A stretch of DNA of 64,000 bases, taken from contig NZ_JAGHRB010000001.1 in assembly GCF_017743995.1 (NCBI RefSeq), positions 62,001-126,000 on the forward strand, read 5' to 3'. This document shows, piece after piece, positions 45,697 through 46,907 of this stretch; positions within the stretch are counted from its first letter, which is position 1; each line of letters begins with the position of its first letter. The notes under the pieces were generated by a model. The model was not told the origin of the DNA, searched no databases, and saw only the letters and a program-made list of their open reading frames with translations. Position numbers and translations under genes: made by a program. The DNA comes from Ruegeria sp. R13_0 (GTDB lineage: Bacteria > Pseudomonadota > Alphaproteobacteria > Rhodobacterales > Rhodobacteraceae).

Positions 45697-46128
45697 ATGA
45701 GAGAACTGCTTGTGATATCCTGCGTTTTGCTGGTCGGGTGCGATACCGTACGTTCGACAACGGATCGTTTGTTGGGGCGCGATGAAGTGGCCGAGGCAGC
45801 GCCTGCTGCTGTAGAGACCGCACCTGCGGAGGCGGAAAGCTCAGCCTATATCCAGCCTGCAACTGCGACGGCGAATTGGACCGGCGCCAAGACCACCATT
45901 GCCGGGTTGGGCGATCCGTCGACTCCGGGCCGCTGGATGCAGACACCCTTGGTCGATTCCGAGGTGACCGCGCGGGTGGTTGTGCCGAAAACCGGGGCGC
46001 AGGCTTACATCACTCTGGTTCCGGCCTCGGGGCCCGAGACGGGTGGCAGCCGTTTGTCACTAGATGCCATGCGGGCGTTGCTGGTGCCGTTTGATCAGTT
46101 GGTCGAGGTCGAGGTCTACGCGAACTAA
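45697..46128 (+). CDS. Putative lipoprotein
   Basis: The 143-residue protein has a short hydrophobic N-terminus [15 protein letters not shown] with lipobox LVGC and Cys15 as the lipidation site. Asp at +2 would, by the E. coli rule, favour retention in the inner membrane. A Pro/Ala/Glu-rich linker ([19 protein letters not shown]) precedes a small C-terminal domain ([15 protein letters not shown]). I recognise no family. Its stop codon TAA lies inside the CTAA flank of the fold-back element downstream. Confidence 0.75.
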
Positions 46129-46229
46129 GGCGTTTTCGGGTTTTACCTGAATGATCAAGTGACACGAATGTCCCGAGAACGCTGAAAGCGTGGCAGGGTA
46201 TTCGTGTCACAAGGCTAACCCGAAACGCT
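46129..46229. mobile_element. Candidate MITE, 101-bp fold-back element with CTAA flanks
   Basis: The whole stretch folds back: outer arms CGTTTTCGGGTT (46131-46142) and AACCCGAAACG (46217-46227, one base different), middle arms GTGACACGAAT and ATTCGTGTCAC (46159-46169, 46200-46210, perfect) and an inner ACGCT-GAA-AGCGT. CTAA is directly on both sides (46125-46128 and 46230-46233). CTAA fits the YTAR target site of IS5-family elements. It contains no gene. A bidirectional terminator is the alternative reading. Confidence 0.5.
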
Positions 46230-46907
46230 CTAACCCTTCAGGTATTTTCCGGCCTCGCGCCGGGCAAAGGGTTTCATCGCGTCGCCATGCGTTTCCAGAA
46301 AAGCCACGACCCGGTTGGGATCATGTTTGGAGAGTTCCCGTAGCCACCACGCAATGGATTTCTGAATGAACCAGTTCCGATCGGGCACATAGCCTGCAGC
46401 CCATCCGAGGATGCAATCTCGGCGTGCCAGATCTTCAGGTTTGGGGTGGTTCTGTTTGGTCCAGGGCAGGGTCGAGACCAGAGCGGCGCGGCGGGTCCAC
46501 ATGTGGTCTGACCCGGTCCATGTTTCGACCTGATCCAGACGCGCTGGATCGGCGCTCAGGCGTTTCTGGATGGCGGTGCAGGCGTGGTCGGCGATGGCCC
46601 ATGCGTCGAAATCGGGCACCCAGCTTTGCAACAAGGCCCAGACATCTTCATCCGGGCGAATCCGCGCTTGTGTCAGCAGTTTGGAGGCCGCGACGCGCGC
46701 CTCATGGATGTTGGTCTGCCAGAGCGCATCCGCGAGGGTGACGCGCTCAGCAACCGACAATTCCTTGCGCCAGGATTTGGTCAGATCGTTGAGAACCGGG
46801 ACCGCGACGCCCAGATAGGGGCGCTCGGCCTTGTGATAGGCTGCGACTTGTTCCGCGCGCTCGGCATCGGCATGCGCCTTGATCTGATCCAGATAGGGGG
46901 CAAGCAT
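46230..46907 (-). CDS. DNA alkylation repair protein (AlkD-like)
   Basis: The 225-residue all-helical HEAT-like protein resembles AlkD DNA glycosylases that remove alkylated bases. Visible elements are VAVPVLNDLTKSWRK, SWVPDFDAWAIADHACTAI, WTRRAALVSTLPW and RNWFIQKSIAWWLRELSKHDP with the aromatic Trp cluster expected near the lesion. Substrate is inferred. It ends in TAG inside the second CTAA of the fold-back element. Three bases separate it from the PNPOx-like gene upstream. Confidence 0.88.
   Translation of the reverse strand: MLAPYLDQIKAHADAERAEQVAAYHKAERPYLGVAVPVLNDLTKSWRKELSVAERVTLADALWQTNIHEARVAASKLLTQARIRPDEDVWALLQSWVPDFDAWAIADHACTAIQKRLSADPARLDQVETWTGSDHMWTRRAALVSTLPWTKQNHPKPEDLARRDCILGWAAGYVPDRNWFIQKSIAWWLRELSKHDPNRVVAFLETHGDAMKPFARREAGKYLKG

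Follow-up and report, generated by a model that had tools for sequence, protein, structure and literature searches.

How did two convergent genes come to have their stop codons on opposite edges of the same hairpin? The question is raised by one locus in the window, the 64,000-nucleotide stretch of Ruegeria DNA analysed here. A lipoprotein-like gene and an alkD-like gene run towards each other and end at either side of a fold-back sequence of about 100 bp, and a copy of the tetranucleotide CTAA lies at each edge. The features of the locus are given below in order of position.

45697-46128, + strand: lipoprotein-like gene, 143 aa, upstream; its stop TAA lies at the element's left edge, in the left CTAA
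46125-46128 and 46230-46233: flanking CTAA copies
46126-46127: left TA, putative target duplication; first two bases of the lipoprotein TAA, whose last base (A46128) would come from the element under the TA model
46128-46230, + strand: mobile element, 103 bp when the terminal A (46128) and C (46230) are counted as part of it; based on repeated copies, empty sites and end analysis
46129-46229: the element by the limits of the sequence-only reading, 101 bp
46129-46142, + strand: left outer arm GGCGTTTTCGGGTT; from the fold and covariation in relatives
46159-46169, + strand: left inner arm GTGACACGAAT, perfect over 11 bp; ATCGCCAAT stands in its place in other subfamilies, with pairing kept
46172-46198, + strand: core hairpin CCCGAG-AACGCTGAAAGCGT-GGCAGGG with a conserved GAGA/GGCA internal loop; from conserved alignment columns and folds
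46200-46210, + strand: right inner arm ATTCGTGTCAC, a perfect 11-bp match to the left inner arm; covariation in relatives
46217-46229, + strand: right outer arm AACCCGAAACGCT; from the fold and covariation in relatives
46230-46907, - strand: alkD-like gene, 225 aa (DNA_alkylation, PF08713), convergent; its stop TAG lies at the element's right edge, in the right CTAA
46231-46232: right TA, putative target duplication; read on the minus strand, it forms bases one and two of the alkD TAG, and the third base, G, pairs with the final C of the element (C46230)

The arms, coordinates and flanking CTAA copies described by the sequence-only reading proved right, and the ends of the open reading frames agree with its placing of the lipoprotein TAA in the left copy and the alkD TAG in the right one. 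The fold-back has a folding energy of -48.8 kcal/mol, against -26.7 +/- 3.3 for shuffled sequences (z = -6.7), and none of 200 shuffles was as good. One extra T in the left arm is the sole difference between the outer arms GGCGTTTTCGGGTT and AACCCGAAACGCT. The core CCCGAG..GGCAGGG reads on the + strand, which gives the element its orientation.

The element is free of protein, being about 100 bp without coding capacity of its own. Rfam gave no match to the window copy up to E = 1, and for eight other loci it returned a single chance match (E = 0.42) outside the element copies. Phage records likewise held no match to the element, and no Pfam family matched the lipoprotein-like protein. An integron attC site was set aside by eye, the ends being without RYYYAAC/GTTRRRY.

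Related genomes show what the locus looks like without the hairpin. In every inspected locus of Ruegeria and close genera, the 3' end of the alkD gene overlaps that of the lipoprotein gene, in most cases by 4 or 13 bp, and none of these relatives has the element between the two genes. In three lineages, both genes share one tetranucleotide, which is the empty site. The junction G[G/A]TTAGTTGGAATA in L054/L080 and L066/L085 holds the alkD TAG and the lipoprotein TAA inside one TTAG, and at the junction GGCTAGTTGGAATA in L061/L086 the two stops share CTAG. An empty orthologous alkD site of this kind is what the sequence-only reading had proposed to look for.

When the element and one CTAA are taken out in silico, the product is the junction actually found in relatives. 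The codons flanking that junction in relatives match those in the window, which means that neither protein was altered by the insertion and that both stops were kept, as the earlier reading had expected. Where the genes had overlapped by 4 bp, a 100-bp spacer now separates them. The locus thus illustrates clearly how a mobile element can, by virtue of its target and its termini, land inside two overlapping stop codons at once. Such sites are common in the host genome, since 15 of 71 convergent gene pairs called mechanically in 464 kb of it (G000: the window and L246-L265) overlap or touch, 5 of them by exactly 4 bp.

The element is also far from alone. A BLASTN search with the window element found 13 near-full-length copies in the host genome at 80-92% identity, plus fragments, and with a covariance model made from 22 copies the host count rises to about 19. 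These copies have different flanks, which bears out the proposal of a MITE-like mobile element. Among 54 genomes of the Ruegeria group the distribution is patchy: 16 have any copy, two besides the host (G037 and G045) are copy-rich, and most have none. Across the Rhodobacteraceae, copies occur in 30 of 197 sampled genera, some with 8-19. No report of such an element family in Rhodobacteraceae was found in the literature searched.

Empty sites can be found at other loci as well. For eight other host copies, the joined flanks were searched in ten relatives and the alignments run straight through, so those eight sites are empty there; the relatives are mostly 75-87% identical in DNA, at which several junctions are not readable to the base. 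L011 is a second clean convergent stop of the shared kind, with GGCGC CTAA[element]CTAA AGCC in the filled state and GGACA CTAA AGCC in the empty one.

Another site, L157, is filled in five species and empty in nine others. The empty site reads ACGA-CTAG-GCCG, with CTAG in 7 of the 9 empty relatives. The filled site reads ACGAATAA[..]ATAGGCCG, with ATAG as the right flank in 5/5 and A as the fourth left base in 4/5. The five filled loci (L157, L158, L159, L161 and L162) represent one old insertion common to five Ruegeria species, beside the same 381-bp gene. Since that insertion the core hairpin has changed in sequence, with pairing kept in some of the species and partly lost in one, and the locus could serve to test whether the fold is under selection once an element has inserted.

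A marked feature of the family across marine Rhodobacteraceae is its contact with stop codons. When a stop is counted only if it abuts an element end and closes an ORF of at least about 100 codons, 13 of 19 host copies abut one against 3.8 expected (p = 7e-6), as do 25 of 47 copies in the genus (p = 5e-7) and 26 of 51 in other genera (p = 9e-7); these p values are indicative, because stops were assigned by a mechanical ORF rule, all genera were compared with the host background, and loci from one genome are not fully independent. Of the YTAR sites outside genes in the same 464 kb of host sequence, about 20% fall within a stop codon and 1.2% within two stops simultaneously. Landing on two overlapping stops recurs at other loci and in other genera. 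Stops at both ends were seen in 2 copies in the host, both on stops common to convergent genes (0.2 expected), in 4 in the genus and in 3 in other genera (0.2-0.6 expected across the three sets). In Ruegeria it is mostly the left end that meets the stop, 19 left-only copies against 2 right-only (p = 2e-4); the bias is weaker in other genera (16 against 7).

The fold is conserved while the sequence is not. Across 22 diverged copies, 97.1% of cells pair, compared with 85.5% after shuffling and at most 46% when the arms are slid; in the outer arms, which are the terminal inverted repeats, 95.4% of cells are paired. Both sides have changed in 15 of 28 pairs, and 75 cells are double-changed, against 27 in shuffles (0/500 as many). 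Relatedness inflates such covariation counts, although the slid controls lie far below them nonetheless. Strong covariation across diverged subfamilies thus shows that the fold is conserved, and probably the hairpin also serves mobility or the stability of mRNA 3' ends. Why the fold is kept while the sequence is not is a question that the family raises.

Several cores share one layout: an outer stem, a one-sided unpaired stretch, an inner stem, and an internal loop whose 3' side carries GGCA. Three other subfamilies have the same outer stem layout and different inner cores, two of the three keeping GGCAG on the 3' side. One (L235, L232, L244) has the core GCGTTCGACCG..GAGAGGCAGCG, and another (L377-L381) has ACGCGTTGAAATC..GATTTCAGGCAGCGT. 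The last (L382-L384), with 19 copies in the genome G063, is 87 bp long and forms a plain hairpin with a perfect GAATTCGAAC.

Some copies are carried by plasmids. On conjugative plasmids, a family copy of 99 bp lies in frame inside a ParB-linked “regulator” gene and adds 33 codons to it (L417 956-1648, CP070881.2; L418 965-1657, NC_009957.1; L427 51-743, NZ_CP021406.1). Homologs of this gene on other plasmids are without the insertion and have the empty site GGCAATTGCGAGG. Compared with close empty homologs, no TA duplication is visible at the plasmid insertion, unlike at the chromosomal copies. A further copy separates a type IV secretion gene from VirB9 (L437 468-570, NZ_CP031599.1). A homologous plasmid whose flanks are 97.6% identical (L439, NZ_CP010658.1) does not have it; the upstream stop is TAA in the filled and TGA in the empty plasmid, and no TA duplication was seen between the two.

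An autonomous partner was sought by protein domains and by terminal sequence. The IS630-type DDE_3 domain (PF13358) is absent from the three copy-rich genomes G000, G037 and G045. For the transposase domains PF01609 and PF13340, the host holds one PF13340 and a few PF01609 fragments, which are broken IS5-type remnants with unrelated ends. When the end pattern AGCGTTTCGGG was used and 2 kb around each single match was walked, no second terminus was found, and the matches were unrelated remnants or coding coincidences. Three loci first suspected to be IS ends (L032, L034 and L035) turned out to be coding sequence. Thus, no autonomous element with matching ends was found in the host and the two other copy-rich genomes by the domains and end pattern used. 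These genomes are drafts, so a partner elsewhere is possible.

Which process, then, placed the hairpin between the two genes? It might have belonged to the gene pair all along, as a conserved bidirectional terminator or 3' regulatory hairpin that does not move, an alternative that the sequence-only reading had itself offered. A strong hairpin between convergent genes, with its pairing conserved, is what such a signal would look like. As an origin this is refuted: it leaves unexplained that the position is empty in all inspected relatives and that the same element is repeated at many unrelated loci, and a terminator scan found no terminator-like site in the element, with no T-run or U-tract after the stem. 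The element may still affect transcript ends as a side effect. A mobile origin leaves the choice of target duplication. YTAR is the target rule of IS5-type elements, and the sequence-only reading had proposed that an element of this type duplicated all four bases of CTAA, in which case both stops would be wholly host sequence. The window copy alone fits a 2-bp and a 4-bp duplication equally well. Identical CTAA or TTAG 4-mers flank it and four other copies (L005, L011, L153, L155), 78% of copies imply YTAR as the host site, and the host does keep IS5-type domain remnants, albeit with unrelated ends. The flanks of the larger set tell a different story. Of 89 copies, 71 have TA at the left, 55 at the right and 46 on both sides. 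In 14 of these 46 the first flank base is the same at left and right (shuffle p = 0.54), in 19 the fourth base is (p = 0.13), and the 10 with identical 4-bp flanks are not above the shuffled level. The flanks are mostly xTAA, with TG at the right in eight copies, and in Ruegeria a C follows most CGAT ends. The fourth base is mostly A at the left and G or A at the right (p = 2e-5), so the outer “CTAA” bases look like element termini beside a TA duplication. Likewise, the empty site at L157 is mostly CTAG, yet every filled right flank there is ATAG and most left ends carry A. A four-base duplication by an IS5-type transposase is therefore unlikely. The duplicated target is probably TA rather than CTAA; the flanks are most simply read as a duplicated TA next to element termini A and A/C/T, and the L157 site and the 89-copy flank data favour a target duplication of the IS630/Tc1-mariner type.

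Alternatively, the element may travel as folded single-stranded DNA that an HUH/RAYT-like or another enzyme inserts at stop-like sites without truly duplicating the target. Conservation of the fold through changes of sequence would suit such recognition by structure, as would the constant asymmetry that most subfamilies show between the outer and the inner stem, the orientation bias relative to the upstream gene in Ruegeria and the two plasmid insertions that show no TA duplication. However, TA flanks at least one end of most chromosomal copies, the family does not as a rule carry the GTAG tag that marks RAYT-linked REPs, and the orientation bias weakens in other genera, all of which makes this origin doubtful, more so than an IS5-type one. 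The many copies, the empty orthologous sites, the 4-bp stop shared in relatives, the unchanged protein ends and the compensatory conservation of the fold are matters of observation, and the most credible account of the locus, held with good though not full confidence, is that a non-autonomous MITE about 100 bp long entered the CTAA/TTAG tetranucleotide that the two convergent stops have in common, with TA duplicated. Counting against this account are the failure to find a transposase partner in the genomes searched, the identical 4-mers around five Ruegeria copies, the TG at the right of eight copies, the two plasmid sites that show no TA duplication, and the junctions in relatives that are not readable to the base.

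On the MITE account, a transposase supplied in trans, now absent or not identified, would cut a YTAR site at its central TA, which would thereby be duplicated. A stop TAG or TAA would then become TA followed by the element's A. At the locus in the window, the lipoprotein stop would be rebuilt from TA and the element's first base A, and the alkD stop from TA and G, the complement of the element's last base C. YTAR is scarce inside GC-rich genes and common at stops, and an end that starts with a purine restores the stop; insertions at stops are therefore tolerated and accumulate. Survival of harmless insertions, without active targeting, could be the source of the stop-codon pattern. It is improbable that mobile hairpins recognised by their fold insert preferentially at stops in the orientation of the gene and carry stop-rebuilding bases, so that insertion at gene ends, stops common to convergent genes among them, is neutral by design and not by selection. 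In any case, the family provides a system for asking how small elements find safe sites in GC-rich genomes.

In form, the family comes closest to RUP, Correia/NEMIS and ERIC, and the element is most aptly placed among such TA-flanked bacterial MITEs as a new variant, one whose transposition mechanism is an orphan and whose niche at stop codons is marked. The RUP element of Streptococcus pneumoniae, as described in the part of PMC2229807 used here, is 107 bp long and linked to IS630-Spn1. Like the window family it is non-coding, intergenic and folded, with terminal inverted repeats and a TA target. The ends of RUP match a resident IS630, whereas none was found here, and the same part of PMC2229807 reports no preference for stop codons, which is marked in the window family.

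Two further families are similar according to that part of PMC2229807. Correia/NEMIS elements of Neisseria share a form of about 107 bp, TA termini, inverted repeats, a stable fold, and filled and empty sites. They are apparently unrelated in sequence, and the window family differs from them in its compensatory fold across very different arms and its clustering on stop codons. ERIC/IRU elements of enterobacteria share TA termini, intergenic position and probably target duplication, and differ in length (127 bp); an orientation-dependent effect on upstream mRNA is reported for them.

The GTAG REPs and REPINs, which are RAYT-linked, are likewise palindromes downstream of genes, and a REP end often supplies the TAG stop codon (PMC3733652). 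GTAG REPs are units of 20-40 bp with a GTAG tag, whereas copies of the window family measure about 100 bp, are flanked by TA and follow no GTAG rule. Rickettsia palindromic elements (RPE) resemble one of the plasmid copies in being inserted in frame inside a gene, unlike most copies here, which are intergenic and lie at gene ends.

One more repeat was met along the way. In the copy-rich genome G151, whose relatives are too distant for junctions to be read at its copies, the right flank of the copy L350 (G151:C2:62216-62375) contains a different palindromic repeat, CCGGAAACTTTTAAAGTTTCCGG, with several near matches in G151 and its relatives.
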